Source: Rhizophagus irregularis (taxonomy: Eukaryota > Glomeromycota > Glomeromycetes > Glomerales > Glomeraceae). Taken from it: a stretch of DNA of 64,000 bases. The position numbers and the translations under genes are program-made. Each line of letters starts with the position of its first letter. Position 1 is the stretch's first letter. A model generated the notes under the pieces. That model saw nothing but the letters and a program-made list of their open reading frames with translations. It had not been told where the DNA came from and did not search any database. The stretch covers positions 4,774,001-4,838,000 of the forward strand of contig NC_089441.1 in the NCBI RefSeq assembly GCF_026210795.1, in the 5' to 3' direction. Of this stretch, positions 16,921 through 60,863 are shown in pieces.

Positions 16921-17849
16921 TGTTGGAATATTGTATAACTGATTTTCCTGATTTTTATGAGAAATAAAATTGCCTTTTTAGATTGTGTAATGTTACTTAA
17001 GTTTTCAAAAAAGGATATTTTGGCCGGAATTATAAAATTTGGCTGGAATTATTATAGGGGGTGTTGAATAAGAGGAATAAGGATGACAAATAGGATTTTT
17101 AATACTAAGTCCCTGGAATACATAGTAAAAATAGAAACAAGGAGGGTGTGACGCAGAATGACAAATTATACATTATTAAAAAGCACGTGATACTAGCGAT
17201 TCATAGCAATTTTAATTAAAAAATTACATAAATTTTATTTATTTTTATATACAAAACAAAATAAATTAAAAACCTATTATTATTTAAATTAAAATTGGTT
17301 AATATAATAAGTTTTCCTATAAGATATTTTAGATCACAGTAAAAAATTCAAATAAAATACTAAAAACTACTTTTTTTACTATTTATTTTCTAATTTAACA
17401 TCAGGAAAGTTTTTGGGGTGCAGAACTGCGGAGATCTGTGAAATTAGCAGATCTCCGCATTTTTTTGCACTTTTTTGACGCATTTTTGCGAAGTTCTGCA
17501 AATTTTGCAACTTCGCAGATAATTGAATATTTTTATCTATAAATCAGCAAAATTCTGCAATTTTGCAGATTTCTGCAGATTTATTAGAAAAATTCTGCGG
17601 TAATCTGCGATTTTGCAGATTTTTGCTTTTATTTTTCATTGAAATATCGGCAATTTTATCATTTTGATTAACTCTAATTAATTTAACACGATTGCCAGTT
17701 AGAGTAGAACCCCGAATAATACTAATATAACTCACAAATGATCGGCATGCATTTACTACGATATTAACTCTACACAACTTTTTTTTCATAGTAACACTAC
17801 ACAAATCCAAATCTTAGTTCAAAAAATTTTTGTTACTAATATAATTCGT

Positions 17850-18720
17850 TTCACATTTTTTCTATTAGTAAGATATTAATAAAATCATGCGAAACTCACC
17901 ATTTATTTGTTAAAATAGTGCGTTTCGCACTTTTTTCTATTAAAATATTAATAAAATAGTGCGAAACTCTCCATTTATTTGTTAAAATAGTGCGTTTCAC
18001 ACTTTTTTATATTAAAATATTAATAAAATGGTGCGAAACGCTCCATTTTTTTTATTAAAATAGTGCGTTTCGCACTTTTTTATATTAAAATATTAATAAA
18101 ATGGTGCGAAACGCTCCATTTTTTTGTTAAAATGGTGCGTTTCGCACTTTTTCTATTAAAATATTAATAAAATGGTGCAAAACTCTCCATTTTTTTGTTA
18201 AAATGGTGCATTTCGCACTTTTTCTATTAAAATATTAATAAAATGGTGCGAAACTCTCCATTTTTTTGTTAAAATGGTACGTTTCGCACTTTTTCTATTA
18301 AAATATTAATAAAATGGTGCGAAACTCTCCATTTTTTCGTTAAAATGGTGCGTTTCGCACTTTTTCTATTAAAATATTAATAAAATGGTGCAAAACTCTC
18401 CATTTTTTTGTTAAAATGATGCGTTTCGCACTTTTTCTATTAAAATATTAATAAAATGGTGCGAAACTCTCCATTTTTTTGTTAAAATGGTGCGTTTCGC
18501 ACTTTTTCTATTAAAATATTAATAAAATGGTGCGTTTGCACTTTTTTATATTAAAATATTAATTAAATGGTGCGAAACTCACCAATTATTTATTAAAATG
18601 GTGCGTTCCACACTTTTTTTTCTTAATAAAATGGTGCGAAATTCACCATTTTTTGTTAAAGTAGTGCATTTCACACTTTTTTCCTATTAAAAAATATTAA
18701 AATAATGCGAAATGCATTAC
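17850..18720. repeat. 71-bp satellite array with GTGCG/CGCAC palindromes
   Basis: About 12 units have a measured spacing of 71-72 bp (GTGC marks at 18063, 18135, 18206, 18277). Each unit contains GTGCGTTTCGCAC (hairpin) and a second GGTGCGAAACTC block separated by TATTAAAATATTAATAAAAT. Central units are the most alike and edge units diverge, as expected for unequal exchange. Confidence 0.92.
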
Positions 18721-18919: not shown

Positions 18920-21100
18920 GGTATCAGCGAGACTCTTCGCTTTGGATTGGTAAGTTTTGAAAGTTTTTCTTTCAAAACTGTTTTTTTAAAAGATTTTTTT
19001 AATATTTTTTTTATTTATTTTTTTAGGTATCAGTGAGACTTTTCACGGTAAGTTTCAAAAGTTTCATTCTTTAAACTTTTGAAACTTTATTTTTTTAAAA
19101 AAAATTAATATTTTTTTTATTTATTTTTTTTAGGTATCGGCGCCCTTCACATAAGTTTCAAAAAGTTTCATTCTTAAAACTTTTAAAACTTTCGTTTTTT
19201 AAAAAAAATTAATATTTTTTTTTATTTCTTTTTTTGGTATCGGTGAAACCCTTTCACGTAAGTTTCGAAAGTTTCATTTTTTTGAAATTTCGTTTTTTTT
19301 AAAAAAAAATTAATATTTTTTTTTATTTCTTTTTTTTAGGTATCGGCGTTAAACCCTTCGCAAGTTTTGAAAGTTTCGTTTCGAAACTTCATTTTTTTTT
19401 AAAAAAATTTAATATTTTTTTTATTTTTTATTTTTTTTAGGTATTGGCGAGACCCTTCACTTTGCATCAGTAAGTTTCAAGAGTTTCATTCTTTTGAAAC
19501 TTTGATTTGTTTTTTAATTTTAATTTTTTTCTTTATTTGTAGGTATTGGTTGGGATCTTTGGAGTAGTAAGTTTTGAAAAATTTGTTCTTCTTTTTAAAA
19601 CTCTATTATTTTTTTTTAAAAATTTTTTTCTTTATTTGTAAATATCGGTTGGCAGGAACATTTGGATGGTAAGTTTTGAAAAGAATCATATTCTTTTCAA
19701 AACTTCAAATTTTATTTTTTTTAACTTTATTTCTATATTTTGTAGGTATCGGTTGGGATTTTTGGATAGGTGAGTTTCGAAAAGTTTCGTTCCTTCTTTT
19801 CGAAACTTATTTTTTTTCTTATCTTTATTTTTCTATTTTGTAGGTATCATCAGTTGGAAATTGGGATTTTTGAATAAGTGAGTTCGAAAAGTTTTGTTCG
19901 TTCTTTTCGAAACGTATTGGTTGAATAGGTTGTAATAACCGAAAATATAATGAAATAAAATAAGGATAAATAATTAGCCGATGGATAAATAATTAGCCGA
20001 TGGGTAAATAATTAGCCAATAAAATTATATTTATAGTTTAGTTTAGTGTAACGAGATAGTTAAATATGATAATAGATCTTTAAATTTTATTAGAAATATT
20101 AGAAATATTAGAAATATTTTTCTTAAAAATGTATAAATACAAGTGGATTTCGATAGGAAATTCGGCAGTTCAATTTTTGGAAAATAAAAATTTTATTTCG
20201 TCCTTATTAATAAACAAACACATTCTTTTAGCCTTTTTCTTATGAGTAAAAAGTGCCACATTAATTATTCTATTTTAATTAATGGTTTATTAAAAATATA
20301 GAGAAACTATCATAATTTAAAATTTCGGTAAGAAATAATGTTTTGTAATTTTTGTAACTAATTTTTATCTTAAAACCAAGCATAAATACTATACGAACTC
20401 AACACGTCGGTGGCAACATACGATATTTTATTTTAATATCCTATGGGCGGCGTGTCACAAGGTAAGTTTTGAAAAGTATCATTACTTTTCAAAACTTTAA
20501 TTTTTTTTTTAATTTTCTTTCTTTATTTTGTAGGTATCGGTTGAAACCTTTGGAAACGAAACCTGTGGTAAGTTTCGAAAAGTTACATTACTTTTCAAAA
20601 CTTCATTTTTTCTCGAAAAGTTTCATTACTTTTCGAAACTTTAATTTTTTTTTAATTTTTTCTCTTTATTTTGTAAGTATCGGTTGCAACCTTTGGAAAC
20701 GAAACCTGTAGTAAGTTTCAAAAAGTTACATTAACTTTTTGAAACTTCAATTTTTTTCAATTTTTTTTCTATATTTTGTTGGTATCAGTTGCGACCTTTG
20801 GATAGGTGAGTTTTGAAAAGTTTCATTTCTTTTTGAAACTTCAATTTTTTTTAATTTTTTTTCTAATGAAACTTTATTAAGGTATTCTCTTTTTGTAGGT
20901 CTATGGCTTTCTGGGTGTTTCCTGAATGGAACTTCGAAGGTATTCTTCGAAGTTCTTTAAATTTTTATTTTTTTTAATAAAAATTTTTTTTTTAACGAAA
21001 TTAATTTTTTTTCTTTTTTTGTAGCTTTGCAACTTTTTAGATGATATCTGAAGAGAATTTTGAAGGTATTCTTCAAAGTTCTTTAAATTTTGGATGAATA
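18920..21100 (+). repeat. Tandem array of intron/micro-exon-like units (type A)
   Basis: About 14 units of ~100 bp each read ..T-rich tract-TAG | GTATCGGYNNGANNCTTTGGAT-like 25-35 nt segment | GTAAGTTT. The first segment is 18921-18949 (29 nt), followed by an intron-like 18950-19026 (77 nt). Directly after each GTAAGT there is a hairpin of the type GTTTCGAAAAG..CTTTTCGAAAC. Every unit keeps the donor and the T-rich acceptor while the stem sequences vary with compensating changes. It is not known whether it is transcribed or spliced. Confidence 0.75.
19931..20459. mobile_element. Solo LTR (529 bp) with AGGT target duplication
   Basis: It starts TGTAATAACCG and ends GCGTGTCACA, so it has TG..CA ends. 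AGGT flanks it at 19927-19930 and 20460-20463. Removing it rejoins ..GGTTGAATAGGTAAGTTTTG, which is exactly the sequence expected of a type A array unit, an independent proof of the insertion point. A TATAAATAC box lies at about 20132. No internal retrotransposon region remains. Confidence 0.85.
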
Positions 21101-22080: not shown

Positions 22081-22559
22081 ATAAAATAAAAATAAAAATA
22101 AAAAAAATGAAATATAAAAAAATATAATTTTTGTTAATTTACAAATAGTTAAATTTTTATTTTAGACTTTTAGTCTTTTTTTATTCTTAAAGTTAGAGGT
22201 ATACTCTGGTAGAATCTGTTCAATCCGTCATCCATTTTTTGACTGAATCAAATGATCCAGATTAAAAATAAACAGATTTTAGAAAATCTGGATGGATCTG
22301 TTAGATAATACTGAATTCATCAGATGTTATACGGATGATCTGATTGACCAGATTGATCAGATAATCTGGTCAAATCCGGTATTTTTTTTTTGCTTTTTTT
22401 TTAAAAAAAAAAATATATATAAAATATAAAAATATAGAGCAGTCTTCCTTTCAGAATTCGGCTTAAACAGCTTAGGACGTTCCCTTTACTTCATTTTTCT
22501 AGGGAACACTTTTCTGGAACTGGATTTCAGCTTGAAGATAAGTTAGAGAAGGTCTTTTT

Positions 22560-23735
22560 GTTTGTTTTTTATTTATTTATTTTTCTAACGTTTCTCTTTA
22601 TTCTTTTTTGTAGATTTTGGCTTTCTGGGTTCTTTGGAATATTGGGTAAGTGTATGGCAACGCACTCTTTACAAATTTACTTTGAAGAAACGTACTAACG
22701 TTTCTTTTTTTTATTCTTTTTTGTAGATTTTAACTTCCCAGGTTCTTTTGGATATTGGTAAGGTTGCTTGCTGAAACCTAGGGGTTTAGGCAAGATGGCG
22801 TTTCGCCAAAAAGCAAAATTCTGCCAAAACTATATTAAAGTTATATTAAAAAACTGGTGAAACTTTGGAGAAAGGTGAAATTGCCAAAACTTATTATAAA
22901 TGCTAAACTCTGCTGAAACTATAATGAATCTATAGTAAAATTTTGACAAAACTAATCGTAAGATTTTGAAGAAGTTTAGACAAGCAACCTTAGATATTGG
23001 GTTAATATGTGGAAGTGCGTGGTCTTGGAATTTACTTTGAAAAAACATACTAACGTTCTTTTTTTATTCTTTTTTATAGATTTCAGCTTCTGGATTCTTT
23101 GAAATATTGGGGTGTATTATTTACGAATTTACTTTGAAGAAACGTACTAACGTTTCTTTTTTTTATTCTTTTTTGTAAATTTCGGCTTCCCAGATTCTTT
23201 GGGATATTGGGTAAGTGTGTGGGAGCGCATTCTCTTGGAATTTACTTTGAAGAAACGTACTAACATTTCTTTTTTTATTCTTTTTGTAGATTTCGGCTTT
23301 CTGGGTTCTTTTGGATATTAGGTAAGTATGTGGAAGCACGTGGTCTTGAAATTTATTTTGAAGAAACGTACTAACGTTTCTTTTTTATTTTTTTGTAGAT
23401 TTCTTGGCTTTCAGTTCTTTTCAATTTAATTGTAGAGAAATGCGTTCTTTTAGAATTTTCTTAAAAAAAATGTACTAACATTTCTTTTTTTATTCTTTTT
23501 TGTAGATTTCAGCTTCCTGGATTCTTTTGGATATTGGGTAAGTATGTGGGAACGCGTTCTTTTGGAATTTACTTTGAAGAAACATATTAACGTTTCTTTT
23601 TTTATTCTTTTTTATAGATTTTGGCTTCCTGAGTTCTTTGGGATATTGAGTAAATGTGTGGGGTTAGTTCTTTTGGAATTTACTTTGAAGAAACGTACTA
23701 ACGTTTCTTTTTTATTGGGATATGGGTAAGTATGT
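22560..23735 (+). repeat. Tandem array of micro-exon/intron-like units (type B)
   Basis: About nine units show a 113-bp spacing where undisturbed. Each unit is a ~32-nt segment (22614-22645: ATTTTGGCTTTCTGGGTTCT..ATATTGG), then GTAAGTGTGTGG, a central TTTGGAATTTACTTTGAAG, the exact yeast-type branch-point word TACTAAC inside GAAACGTACTAACGTTTC, a T-rich tract and TAG. Seven copies have exact TACTAAC (22693, 23048, 23146, 23262, 23367, 23471, 23696). About half keep GTAAGT exactly. The 32-nt segments are not a multiple of three, so consecutive joining would change frame. It could be a spliced non-coding transcript or an intron-derived satellite. Confidence 0.8.
22759..22992. mobile_element. 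234-bp hAT-type MITE nested in the type B array
   Basis: Termini TAAGGTTGCTTGC / ACAAGCAACCTTA are flanked by the 8-bp duplication GATATTGG (22751-22758 and 22993-23000). GATATTGG is the conserved 3' end of the array's exon-like segment, so the insertion sits exactly at a donor-site junction. An older copy is at 4428-4645. Confidence 0.9.
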
Positions 23736-24879
23736 GGAGTGGGTTTACTTTAAAGTTTAAGCAATGTAATAATTTTATTTGGTTCAAATTAATAAATAAA
23801 TTTTACATTACTATATAATAAACTATAAAAACTATAAACAATAAATATGAATTATGTTTTTAAGAAAAAAAAAATTGAATGGATTGAACAGATTAAACGG
23901 ATATCTGTTAAACTATCCGGTCAATCTGGTTAAACCGGTGATACAAGGATTGAATGGATATCCATTGATCTATCTGATCAATCCGGTGATACAACCAGAT
24001 TAATCCAAATCCAGTCAATTTTCAGATGGATGACCAGATATCTGAATTGATGGATTTCAGAGCATACCTCTACTTAAAGTATAAAGATAATTGTAAATGA
24101 AATCAGTATTATTATAGTTCATTAAATATTTAAAGATAAATCATTAATCAATTCTATATTCTTAAAAAAAATATTAGCTATAATTGGTATTTAAAAACTG
24201 TTAATATTTAAATTTAATAAATTTAAATATTTTTAATAAGAAATATTTTTATTTAAATTTATAATTTATTATTATTAATCTGAAAAATCAGTTACTGAAA
24301 AATTATAAAAATATGTCTAAAAGTTTTTAAAATATATTTAAAAATGGTGGAATACCTTTTTTTTAAAAAAATATAATTTATTAATATCCGATATTTTTAT
24401 AAAATCATATAACTATTATACAGTTCACCCTCGCTATAGTGAATTTTTATATAGTGAATAACTCACTATAATGAAGAAAAGTCAGGTAGGATTTTTTCGG
24501 ATTTTTTTATAAATAATAATTCTTGATATAGTGAATTTTATAATAAATTTTCTGTATCTCGTAATTCGAATTTAAATACTGGAACCAGTGTTAATAAAAT
24601 GACCCTTGATATAGTAAAGATTTTTGCTATAACGAATTTTTCAAATGTTACACAATTAATTAGTGAATTTTTTATCACGTATAATTTATTTGAATTCGAA
24701 TTTGCCTTTAGAAGCTAGAATTTTTTCGTGATTTAAACTAAAAAGGAAAAGTATCATATTTTATTTTGATTATAATAAAAGTAATCCTGATCTAGTTAAT
24801 TATTTTCTTCACACACTACGCCCAAAACTCAAAATAAAAGAACTTCGCGTACTCAAATAACCATAGGCAAAGGTATAAT

Positions 24880-26396
24880 ATCCCAAGAAAAAACTTTGCC
24901 AAAAAGAGCCTCCTTGACTCTTGCCCAAAAACATGAAATATGTCCTTAAAAAAGTTACTGAACCTTCTCTAAAAAATAAAGAACTAGCGAAATTATTTGA
25001 TGTTAGTGAAGGATGTATTAGTAGTACGTTAAAAAAATTCACAAAAATGGCTTGAAATTGATCCCAAGCACCTGAAGCTAAAGGTAAAAGACAAGATAGG
25101 GTGATTTTTCCAGAAATTGAAGAAGCACTTACGTTATGGGTATTAAAAGCTTTGGAAAATAGTGTTGATATTAGTGATCAAGTTTTACATGAAAAAGCTA
25201 TGATGTTTGCATCTTTATATAAGATTGAAAATTTTAAAGGAAGTAATGGTTGGATTAATGGATTTAAAAAAAGGCACAATCTTTCTTGTTATTTAAAGCA
25301 AGGAGAGGCTGCAAGTGCACCACTTGAGAAACTTGATGAATTTAGGAAAGAGCTTCAAGATTTGATTCGTGGATATAGTCTTGATGATGTTTTCAATTGT
25401 GATGAAACTGGTTTGTATTGGAAAATAGAACCTAAAAGAACGATTTCTGATAAATCTATATCTGGACGAAAGCAATCAAAAGATCGTGTGACAATTCTTC
25501 TTTGTTCTAATGCAACTGGTAGAGAAAAGCTTAAACCAGTATTTATTTATAAATACAAAAACACAAATCAAGCTGAAAAACTTAAATATGTTTCTTTAGG
25601 TAGAATATTCCTGGAATATAAAAGCTTGGATGCAAGTCTCCATTTGGAATGATTGGATTCGTCAATTTGATGCAACAATGAGATTAAAAGGAAGAAAAAT
25701 TCTTCTTCTTGTAGATAACGCTCCTGTTCATGCTTTATACGAAGGTGTAGAATTGACTAATATAGAAATTAAGTTTTTACCTCCTAACACAACCGCGCAT
25801 CTGCAACCTTGTGATAAAGGTATTATTAATAGTTTTAAGGTAATTAATTCTGAAAAATTTTAATGTAATTTTTTAATTATTACGAAATTAAACTTACCAT
25901 ATTTATATATTTGTAGGCACACTATCGAAAATTGCTCCTTAAAAATCGTATCAAGGCCTTTGATTATCAACAAGAAACAGGCAATAGTAAGTCACCAATT
26001 GATATCAAAAAAGCTATTAAGTATGTGGTATTAGCCTGGGATAAAGTTCTTTCTCAAACTATATTTAACTACTGGAGAGATGCAGGAATTTTGCCATTAG
26101 ATGATACAGATTCTCAAGATGAAATAGAAGAGAATGAACGTGAAGAGAATGAACGTAAAGAAATCCAAGATTTAATTGATAAACTTGAATATATACATCC
26201 CCTTACCGCTGAAGAATATATTAAATTAGATCAGGAGAATGAAATTACTGGTGAGACACTAACTGAAGAACAGATAGTTGCCATTCTTAAAGAAAATAAC
26301 TCCATTTCTGATGATGAAAGTGATAGGGAAATTACTTCAGTATCTAGCTCTGAAGTTTTGGCCGCGTTTGATAAAATTTTTATTTATTTAGAATAA
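24880..26396 (+). pseudogene. pogo/Tigger (DDE_1) transposase, decayed
   Basis: N-terminal helix-turn-helix remains are readable in two frames near 24890-25045 (LKNKELAKLFDVSEGCISST). The CENP-B-type second HTH starts at 25101 (NFKGSNGWINGFKKRHNL). The DDE part has FNCDETGLYWK (first Asp, ~25400), then a frame slip near 25615, VDNAPVH (second Asp, ~25715) and LQPCDKGIINSFK (third Asp, ~25812). A 77-nt intron (25840-25916, GTAATT..TTGTAG) lies directly after NSFK and is also present at the same place in element 2. The exon resumes with YRKLLLKNRIKAF. TAA at 26394-26396 replaces a probable Gln, since the frame beyond still reads transposase-like. Confidence 0.9.
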
Positions 26397-58170: not shown

Positions 58171-60863
58171 ATGAATATAAATCACAAAATTATTGATTCT
58201 AGCAGTGAAGAAAATGAACCTATTAATGAATATTTTGATTCTAGTGATGAAGAAAATGATTTTCATTATACGATAATTACAGGTGCAAAGTTTCATACTT
58301 GGGAAGAATTTGAAGTTTATCTTGAACGATATGCTTTACAGGAAGGATTTTCTTTTAAAAAAATAAGGGTTGAGTATTATTTGCATCAAAAAGAAATGAA
58401 AGGTTTAACAGTTGATCAGAAAAAACTTCATGTTAAGCGAAGGACATATGAGTGTACTCATTCCGGTAATTATGTATCAAAAGAAGATTATTAATTTTGA
58501 TAACCGAAAGGAATAAGAAGCATTACAGATCAATTGTCCTTGGCATGTTAATGCAACTAAACCCAAAAAAGAAAATACCATAGGTATTACATCTGTTAAA
58601 CTTGAACACAATCATGTTATGAATCCATTAATTGCAGAAATGGCACCTAAATTTAGAAAATTTACTCCAGAAATGATTACTGATGTTGAATTTTATGTGA
58701 AACATAATATATTTAGCGCTACACAGATATATCCATTACTTCGAGCAAAGTATTCTGATTATCCAATTTTAAAAAAGGATCTATATAACATTATTCAAAA
58801 AGTTAAGGTTGGGCAAAAGGAAGTTGTTAAAAATGATAGTGCAAATTTTTTACATTATCTTTATGAAAAGAAACAACAATAACCTGAATGGTTCTTTGAA
58901 TTTCGCTTATTTGAAAATGATTAAAGACTAACATCATTAATCTGGATGTCACCTGATCAATGTTCTTACTATATTAGATTTCACGAAGTCTTAATTTTTG
59001 ATTGTACAGTTGGAATAAATCGTTATGATATGGTTCTATATTTATTTCTTGTTGTTGATAATAATATAAGATCACGATTGATAGCAAGTGTATTGCTAGA
59101 AGATGAAACGGAAAACTCATTTATTTGGGTATTACAACAACTTAAAAAGTTTCAAGTGATGTTTATCATAAGTGTTATATATCTGATTCTGGCTTCTGCT
59201 ATGGCAAATACTATTAGTTTGTTTTCGGCAATGGCAACGAGCACAATCGTATTTCATATTGATCTTAACGCCCAAAAGAATGTGAAACCAAAACTTGGAT
59301 TGCAAAAATTTAGTGAATTTCGGGCTGAATTTTTTTATGCCGTAATAGTTGCTTGTTTATGAGATTTTTGAATCAAAATGGAAAATTTTAATTGAAAAAT
59401 ATCCTGAAATATCAAAATATTTGAAGCGGATGCTTGAACCAACAAAGGAAAGTTAGGCTACTTGCTATATAAATGAAATTTTCAATTGTGGAATAAATAG
59501 CACTCAAAGAGTAGAATCCCTTAATCATCTACTTAAAGCTGCTATCCAAAAAAATTTTCTCTTATATTAACTCACCAATGAGATTCAAAATATACTTAAT
59601 AATGAAATGAAATATGAACGTATAATCAAAATGAGAAATATTTTACCTCTACAAACTTTGGATGATGTACCTTCAAAATTTTTTGTAAGTATTAATGAAA
59701 TTTGTAAGAAATTTTTAATTTCACACATTCTTTTAGCAACTCAAAATCAGATGAAGCATTCATTTTTTTACGATGCATACTTGGTTGATAAAGATACTAT
59801 TCAGCAAGTAAGTTAGGTTTCAGAGTAGCTTTAGGATTAGGATAGCGTTGAGTTAGGGTTAGAGTTAGGGTTAGAGTTAGGGTTAGGAGTTAGGTTAGGG
59901 GTTAGGGTTAAGATCCGTTTAGGATTTAGAAAGGAATTTATTATGAATTTAAAAATTTTATATGGTTGCTAATTTTGTTGTTTCTTTTATTTAGGTTGAT
60001 AATACAGATGATAATGAAGGTTTTCAGGAAGATGATTATGATGCAACACAAATATTACTTCAAACTATAATCAGAAAGATACAAAATTTATTGAATGTCA
60101 AAATTTGGAAAGTTAAGCCAGAATTGTCACAAACAAAATCACATTTTGTAGTTTTGATGGCAGATGGAAGTTTTTCTTGTACTTGTAACCTTCTAATATC
60201 ATATGGTATTCCATGTAGATATTTTTATAGAGTTCTTAGAAAGAGTTCACAAGCAAAATTTCATATTTCTTTAATAAATCAGCGCTGGTATCAAGATTCG
60301 AAGTTAAATATTGATGATAAAGAAATAGCTTTATTAAATATTATATCAATTGTTGAAGATCATAATTCTTCAGCAGTAATTCATGAAGAAATCAATTTTA
60401 ATTATATTCATCATGTTCGTGATGAACAAGTTTATACAAAAAAGCTTCAAGTAATCATTTCGGCAAAATTAAAATATGGAAAAGCATTTGGTTTCACAAA
60501 AAAGGCTTTAGACTTAACACAAAAATTAGATTGTTATAATGAGTTGAATGGGTTACTTCAAATATATATTGAAGAAAAGCAACAAGAATTACTTTGTAAT
60601 TAAACAACTGATGAAAATACTGCAGGAAATCAACAAGAAAATATTGAATGTTCTAATCCAGTAACTTCAAGACGTTATGGACGACCCCAGGTCAATACTT
60701 AAATGAAGGAGAAACTTTAAGATAGAATAAGAAACAAAAGAAAACTGAAGGCAACTTAGAAGTTAATGGAAATGATAAGAAGGAAAGAAAGTGTAAAGGA
60801 TGTGGGGGTACAGGTCATGATTTGCGTAATTGTAAAAGAAGAATCCTTAGTGAGAAAAATTGA
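58171..60863 (+). pseudogene. FAR1/MULE-type transposase gene, decayed
   Basis: From ATG 58171: acidic N-terminus, then a FAR1-like DNA-binding domain (FHTWEEFEVYLERYALQEGF; zinc ligands in YECTH, NCPWH and LEHNH, in more than one frame around 58450-58615). PKFRKFTPEMITDVEFYVKH begins the MULE part. The MULE DDE domain shows IFDCTVGINRYDMVLYLFLV (first Asp) and EDETENSFIWVL. A frame change follows near 59165. After the 187-nt intron 59808-59994 (phase 0) comes a SWIM zinc finger (CTCNLLISYGIPCRYFYRVL, C-x-C..C-x-H-like with Tyr/Phe at the usual His) and finally a CCHC-like knuckle (CKGCGGTGHDLRNC, ~60795). TAA/TGA stops at about 58492, 58523, 58880, 58921, 59453 and 60601 break it. No terminal inverted repeats were identified. 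Confidence 0.85.
59826..59920. repeat. Interstitial telomere-type repeat in the MULE intron
   Basis: About ten exact or near copies of TTAGGG / GAGTTAGGGTTA lie in one block within the intron 59808-59994. TTAGGG is the telomere repeat of many fungi. The copies are degenerate, so this is an old internal tract rather than a chromosome end; unique sequence continues for 4 kb. Confidence 0.9.

Follow-up and report, generated by a model that had tools for sequence, protein, structure and literature searches.

A tandem array of intron-like units in Rhizophagus irregularis appears to be cargo of a non-autonomous hAT-type transposon

A tandem array of short intron-like units and micro-exons in the root-symbiotic fungus Rhizophagus irregularis is almost certainly the interior of a non-autonomous hAT-type transposon, i.e. 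transposon cargo. The array lies within a stretch of 64,000 nucleotides, the whole of which we refer to as the window. We consider it probable that such chains represent an intron-chain leader of hAT transposases that was retained and amplified in non-autonomous derivatives; it may also aid RNA accumulation and silencing escape.

The element carries terminal inverted repeats (TIRs) and is flanked by an exact 8-bp TSD; both stand at the ends of the whole 1.9-kb element and not at intron ends. Its assignment to the hAT type, like that of its copies, follows from the 8-bp TSD, which we take to be a pointer to hAT. No transposase was seen in the window copy (22194-24072). The preliminary description of this DNA had placed the feature at 22560-23735; the array is indeed there, but the feature is longer and belongs to the element, whose parts are as follows (window coordinates; introns are predicted).

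22186-22193, no strand: left copy of the 8-bp TSD, CTTAAAGT, repeated exactly at 24073-24080
22194-24072, plus strand: non-autonomous hAT-type element of class I, 1,879 bp, with TIRs and exact 8-bp TSD
22194-22207, plus strand: left TIR, 14 nt, of the pair TAGAGGTATACTCT / AGAGCATACCTCTA
22445-22537, plus strand: leader-exon-like stretch ahead of the array, ending in ...TTTCAGCTTGAAG, donor decayed to ATAAGT
22538-22613, plus strand: intron 1, donor ATAAGT, branch TTCTAAC, acceptor TAG
22614-22645, plus strand: micro-exon, 32 nt
22646-22726, plus strand: intron with all signals, TACTAAC within the palindrome GAAACGT-ACTA-ACGTTTC, fold z -3.09
22727-22758, plus strand: micro-exon, 32 nt, its last 8 nt duplicated by the nested MITE
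22759-22992, no strand: nested 234-bp MITE, class II hAT-type, TIR TAAGGTTGCTT, exact TSD GATATTGG
23001-23079, plus strand: intron with weak donor GTTAAT, TACTAAC and TAG
23211-23289, plus strand: intron, signals all intact
23290-23321, plus strand: micro-exon, 32 nt
23322-23398, plus strand: intron, signals all intact
23432-23505, plus strand: intron with poor donor GTAGAG, TACTAAC and TAG
23506-23537, plus strand: micro-exon, 32 nt
23538-23617, plus strand: intron, signals intact, branch TATTAAC
23618-23649, plus strand: micro-exon, 32 nt
23650-23731, plus strand: last unit, truncated, donor GTAAAT, TACTAAC, no acceptor, terminal GTAAGT at 23726
24059-24072, minus strand: right TIR, of the pair TAGAGGTATACTCT / AGAGCATACCTCTA
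24073-24080, no strand: right copy of the TSD, CTTAAAGT, matching the left copy exactly

The array has a period of about 111 bp and holds nine branch modules with non-coding micro-exons of about 32 nt between them. The earlier account of a tandem repeat with exon-like segments of about 32 nt, T-tracts and TAG was borne out, and so was its count of seven exact TACTAAC words, which lie between 22693 and 23702. The pattern GTAAGT-N30..55-TACTAAC-N18..40-TAG occurs as three exact strings in the window, all of them in the array, versus 0.02 expected (100 shuffles). The presence of all three splice signals in every unit, as first described, was not borne out: only four of the nine introns (22646-22726, 23211-23289, 23322-23398 and, with TATTAAC, 23538-23617) carry the donor, branch, T-tract and acceptor of a spliceosomal intron at proper spacing. 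Two further introns keep GT within a poor donor (GTTAAT at 23001, GTAGAG at 23432), and three units have lost a site: the first donor reads ATAAGT, TAA stands in place of the acceptor near 23177, and an acceptor is missing from the last unit. GTAAGG at 22758, which resembles a donor, marks the junction of the nested MITE insertion that splits the array at 22759-22992. The leader-exon-like stretch (22445-22537) also occurs in locus L003, where it is followed by GTAAGT. The nested MITE has relatives in L042 and L046, and its ends are of the kind that elsewhere bears family C intron arrays.

We searched the genome of R. irregularis DAOM197198 (146,748,485 bases, 32 contigs) for further copies. 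Class I elements, with short TIRs TAGAGGTATGCTCC / GGAGCATACCTCTA, are flanked by exact TSDs in the window (CTTAAAGT) and on contigs C12 (L003, GCGTGGAG), C29 (L028, CCTTTAAT) and C23 (L032 and L040, CCCTAAAA), and by TSDs with one mismatch on C32 (L029) and C30 (L044). TSDs and flanks differ from copy to copy, i.e. the same element resides at unrelated sites. Fifteen of the 21 scanned stretches yielded no pair of ends whose TSD agreed to within two mismatches, and many of these show one end only. Copies with a family A array are 1,334, 1,426, 1,879 and 2,197 bp long, and L003 has 12 recognised exons, the window copy six and L029 five; this variation in unit number is the sole respect in which the term satellite, offered in the preliminary description, is apt.

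The left end of the C12 copy, used as query, matches at least 40 places in the genome. The first 40 matches, which include the left end of the window element, were counted and nine weaker matches on the opposite strand omitted; among the 40, C2 and C30:40856 match query positions 125-184 only, and two C15 matches are halves of one end, C15:3175788 (query 1-115) being the detached front of the end at C15:3177844 (query 99-188). An A or F array lies within 1.5 kb of 29 of these 40 left ends and on the same strand in all 29. Once the unlinked ends were read, L059 and L061-L064 proved to hold F arrays and L034 a decayed F array, and L060 showed a first-exon-like stretch only. Arrays therefore accompany at least 35 of the 40 listed ends, with C14:4826283 and C32:2263657 left unopened. 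In L044 the F units lie some 4.3 kb from the class I end; this locus (C30:1888407-1894567) is a 6.2-kb class I element with several kinds of intron chain and no ORF of 90 aa. Counted from the arrays, grouped by eye among the matches listed, 9 of 19 family A arrays (single rows C2:4033806 and C10:5212627 and E-type rows excluded) have no class I left end among those matches; L005, L011, L012 and L038 show a class I-like end on the other side, and C8 (L001) and C2:4060k (L037) have no class I end on either side, three of the nine being left unfetched.

Transposase-bearing relatives place the chain relative to a gene. With the class I transposase piece from L034 as query, the best two matches are on C9 (itself) and C5 (89% identity), and both fall within units with class I ends (C9:5199789-5205664 and C5:5594714-5601040). 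The C5 unit runs from a terminal repeat through twelve introns (L065, 1303-3130), an ATG at about 3374 and the transposase exons to a convergent F array and the other end. All 12 leader introns have donor, branch and acceptor and lie on the same strand as the transposase, versus a mean of 0.57 introns and a maximum of 3 in local shuffles (n=100) and 0 in the reversed sequence. The C9 leader has ten such introns, likewise on the transposase strand, with F units at the other end. The leader position upstream of the transposase is thus seen only in two related copies of class I. The hAT C-terminal domain (PF05699, 2.8e-10) scores above the Pfam cut-off in the C9 unit; DUF659 on C9 and C5 and the RNase-H-fold model score below their cut-offs, as do PF14372 and PF04937 on the C9 unit. 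Both transposase frames carry stops and neither unit has a matching TSD, so no intact autonomous element was seen. Among the options of the preliminary description, a transcribed multi-micro-exon RNA comes nearest, given the similar intron chain upstream of transposase genes in these relatives.

Related arrays occur in two further end-classes. Of 11 close family C arrays among the matches listed (L014-type rows excluded), ten adjoin a class II end match (TAAGGTTGCTTGCCG), all ten on the same strand. Counted from the ends, which were taken as 20 places out of 59 rows, the array is present at 10 of 20, or 9 of 19 without C9:4257218, a partial match that lies beside an array and was kept; 20 more places matching only about query 39-86 were omitted, none of which is within 3 kb of a close C array. 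Five class II copies were inspected for TSDs, which are exact in L057 and L058, have one mismatch in L024, form an offset duplication in L056 and are absent in L055. DUF659 is a domain known in hAT transposases. The class III element on C23 (4,576 bp) has ends TATACATGGCCTG, an exact TSD TTCCAGAT, a transposase with DUF659 (3.1e-20) and, on the opposite strand, a family E array. This array stands on the 3' side only and converges with the transposase, so the leader role cannot be generalised.

Further chains were found whose borders are less clear. Chains of the L014 type occur as dispersed copies with 98.5% identity to L015 over 2.3 kb, and their homology stops exactly at the CACTGGTC end, so that they look mobile too; their flanks show no TSD. 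TIR/TSD scans gave no convincing border for the chains of C8, C12:4450k, family B (L023) and family D (L018). The window itself holds at 18920-21090 a second, different intron/micro-exon chain with exons such as GTATCGGTTG... and palindromes beside the donors, related to L045 (4.0-7.0 kb) and L023 (2.5-3.2 kb); a TIR/TSD scan of this chain (18.9-21.1 kb) likewise gave no convincing border. Chains C and D (L014, L018, L026) have in common a 3' terminal piece TTGGAATCGAACCAACTGGAA...CAACA that resembles a tRNA T-arm, in which ARAGORN found no tRNA. In L014 and L041 the donors lie inside long palindromes (e.g. GTAAGTTTCGCAACGCGTTGCGAAACTTAC) with arms that differ between introns. No Rfam family exceeded its gathering score in nine loci, and a tRNA search of 11 loci found none.

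Many units have decayed, those of the window among them. Splice-site counts were read directly at exon borders and the background was taken from a separate alignment with a somewhat different unit set; the direct counts were preferred because varying T-tract length disturbs the acceptor counts of the alignment, in which A loci were matched by the family E query as well. The alignment set omits L002, L004, L007 and L008 (overlapping L001/L003), the TCP-1 loci and units with more than 25% gaps, and CpG positions were dropped from the background because CG methylation at transposons is described for R. irregularis (PMC8647823). The intact share of other non-CpG dinucleotides is 0.739 in family A and 0.711 in family F. 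Acceptors are kept in 73 of 81 family A units (binomial 2.5e-4) and 53 of 57 family F units (4.7e-5), and family F donors in 46 of 49 (8e-5); since the units are related and the counts not independent, these rough values are guides only. Family A donors read strictly (51/69, p 0.56) are not above background, and reach 59/69 (0.016) when eight one-base register shifts are read as GT. Counts for acceptors and donors, respectively, are 11/14 and 10/11 in family B, 11/11 and 7/9 in family D, and 14/16 and 10/14 in family E; in family C, where the exon-start register differs between loci, 14/21 acceptors are kept. The preliminary description had named splice words no better kept than the remainder of the unit as evidence against itself; the A and F acceptors and the F donor are better kept, and the A donor only weakly and depending on register. 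The branch adenine is kept in 95 of 96 and 72 of 73 units, which by itself is weak evidence for splicing because the search models contain the branch bases and conservation of the flanking stem is similar (0.93-0.94).

The branch site lies in a palindrome with the common core G[AG]AACGT..ACGTT[CT]C in families A-F. The 18-mer GAAACGTACTAACGTTTC has 504 genome matches with at most one mismatch versus 0 for the reversed control, and any palindrome before a T-tract and AG was found in 215 modules of the loci read versus 3 in one local shuffle (L002, L004, L007 and L008, which overlap L001/L003, are excluded from this second search and from the pair counts). Arms with compensated changes occur, namely GAAACGT/ACGTTTC, GGAACGT/ACGTTCC and GAAATGT/ACATTTC. 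For the pair counts, 318 modules were chosen by their 3' half only, of which 177 with three inner pairs were kept and 141 omitted; the four outer pairs are Watson-Crick in 170, 176, 168 and 158 of the 177, and pair six is A-T in 123 and G-C in 43. The 23 distinct arm pairs have 92 outer pairs, of which 72 match, versus 61.8 by permutation (2 of 2000 as high). Fold z values range from -1.5 to -3.7 in five array introns and from -0.7 to 0.8 in five ordinary introns; minimum-energy folds put the branch site in a hairpin in three of the five array introns and not in the other two (families B and F). Neither TACTAAC nor a G+C-containing hairpin arm above 4 bp was found in 17 ordinary introns of six TCP-1 family genes (approximate borders). 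The branch palindrome may act as an RNA structure or as a DNA palindrome.

In the working that we propose, RNA polymerase II would start near the terminal repeat and transcribe inward, and the near-consensus introns, with a strong donor, the branch site in a short palindrome, a T-tract and TAG, would be removed. On the basis of this anatomy, the arrays are likely to yield spliced transcripts. An efficiently spliced leader could raise the accumulation of transposase RNA, and the spliced transcript could pass the cell's check on badly spliced or intronless transposon RNA. This benefit of better RNA accumulation and less silencing is suggested tentatively, by analogy with Cryptococcus, in which introns are described to increase RNA accumulation cumulatively (PMC3744415) and inefficiently spliced transposon RNA to trigger siRNA (PMC5851062); for R. 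irregularis 40 Argonaute copies are given (PMC11075540). Derivatives that lack transposase would keep the ends and the chain and move by transposase acting in trans, and chains could grow or shrink by unequal exchange between units. A more far-reaching version, an 'intron passport', is speculative and on balance unlikely: a chain of idealised introns with covarying branch palindromes, common to several end-classes and set between terminal promoter and transposase, would cause the RNA to be read as well-spliced self and to escape spliceosome-coupled RNAi, and non-autonomous copies would amplify the chain.

The intron-chain leader has to be weighed against readings in which the chains have another origin or role. 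They might come from host long non-coding genes, picked up in the manner of Pack-elements, so that the introns serve host RNA. The C8 array (L001) fits this, as it runs on into further, different exons and has no class I end, and so do families B (L023) and D (L018), which stand in long exon chains without a convincing border in TIR/TSD scans; but related chains occur in three TIR classes and at both ends of two transposase-bearing units, and the dispersed L014-type chains, with homology ending exactly at CACTGGTC, look mobile too, which makes a captured host gene improbable. Lower still do we rate a role at the DNA level, with the palindrome G[AG]AACGT..ACGTT[CT]C as a putative repeated subterminal binding site of the transposase and the resemblance to introns incidental. 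hAT elements use repeated subterminal motifs, and a palindrome of the same core runs throughout families A-F. However, such a role leaves unexplained the donors, T-tracts and AG kept at fixed spacing across families with different exons, as well as the leader of 12 introns versus 0.57 in shuffles.

The preliminary description had also considered an introner-like element. In that case a 112-bp unit would insert singly as a new gene intron and be amplified in tandem later. The introns are near-perfect and their copies many (allowing one mismatch, the 18-mer has 504 places and its reversed pattern 0), and in L020, one of the 14 opened loci, an 85-codon coiled-coil-like frame leads into a decayed module. 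This locus (C6:1147600-1150600, minus strand, plus coordinates 425-679) has the frame, then the decayed branch module and a chain micro-exon, and is the sole such place seen; no Pfam family scored above the cut-off for the frame. We take L020 to be a fragment of a chain that came to lie next to a coding piece, with intron-like use as the alternative, and the next exon is a chain micro-exon again. Twelve of the 14 opened loci lack a frame of 80 codons within 150 nt on the module strand, and the frame of L024 lies inside the element. No TSD or TIR was seen at unit ends, and the TCP-1 family introns lack the TACTAAC and hairpin arms of the units. At the 14 of 504 places opened the module sits in chains or chain pieces, and TSDs flank the whole transposon, so that we regard the introner-like option as very unlikely. 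Least credible, to the point of being negligible, is a protein gene built of repeated micro-exons. Three joined copies of the family A consensus exon contain no stop (by eye), and L003 is open over 127 codons, which only 7 of 500 shuffles reach; but exon copies are not independent, most exon lengths in families A (32/31/23/22/29), B (32) and E (22/19/25) are not divisible by three, with family F mixed and family D at 45 or 27, and 500 of 500 shuffles for family D (L018) and 491 of 500 for family F (L032) are as open or more. A protein-coding array was rejected, as most spliced arrays are no more open than shuffles, with L003 as the exception.

hAT DNA transposons include the Ac/Ds, hobo and Tol2 group as well as MITEs. 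The present elements have in common with them the 8-bp TSD, short TIRs, a partner transposase with the hAT C-terminal domain and non-autonomous derivatives, and differ in the chain of some 10-25 short introns and non-coding micro-exons carried as leader or cargo. No hAT element with such an intron chain was found among the titles and abstracts listed from the open-licence literature. Maize Ds (PMC5432752) is a hAT-family element with usable splice sites, as here, but its sites are described as joining host exons, whereas many complete introns stand in tandem inside the present element. Introners (PMC9860276) are likewise repeats that have the borders of introns, and some possess TIR and TSD; they are described as single introns in genes, whereas here the mobile unit is the whole transposon flanked by TSDs, and the main text of that paper contains none of the whole words Rhizophagus, hAT or tandem. 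The stwintrons of Hypoxylaceae (PMC12403724, PMC8469720) are also near-identical fungal intron families, some internally symmetrical, but are reported as nested twin introns of coding genes and not as transposon-borne tandem chains. The SP7-like effectors of Glomeromycotina (PMC11333574) are genes that combine repeats and introns in the same fungi; their repeats code for protein and a conserved intron precedes the first of them, and these genes were rejected as an explanation, since the present exons are not coding-like and the units sit in transposons.

About two thirds of R. irregularis transposable elements are reported to be unclassified (PMC11075540), and the chains offer a recognisable label for a small but definite share of transposable elements, with hundreds of units in at least three end-classes. 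Within one genome they form natural series that range from few to some 25 similar introns, which together with RNA and small-RNA libraries that already exist would allow a test of whether introns protect transposon RNA from silencing, and the role of a palindrome around the branch point can be asked in the same series. Furthermore, the transposase relatives with chains could be used to test whether introns help transposon expression and silencing escape.

The window has other features outside the element. Interstitial TTAGGG-like repeats lie at 59831-59910, TTAGGG being described as the telomere word of R. irregularis (PMC10234402). At 24922-25841 there is a decayed relative (64-73% identity) of the transposase-like frames flanking the class III element in L009/L039, pogo-like by eye. 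A 71-bp tandem repeat of 9.6 copies with 94% matches occupies 17847-18703 and contains the inverted words GTGCGAAAC/GTTTCGCAC.
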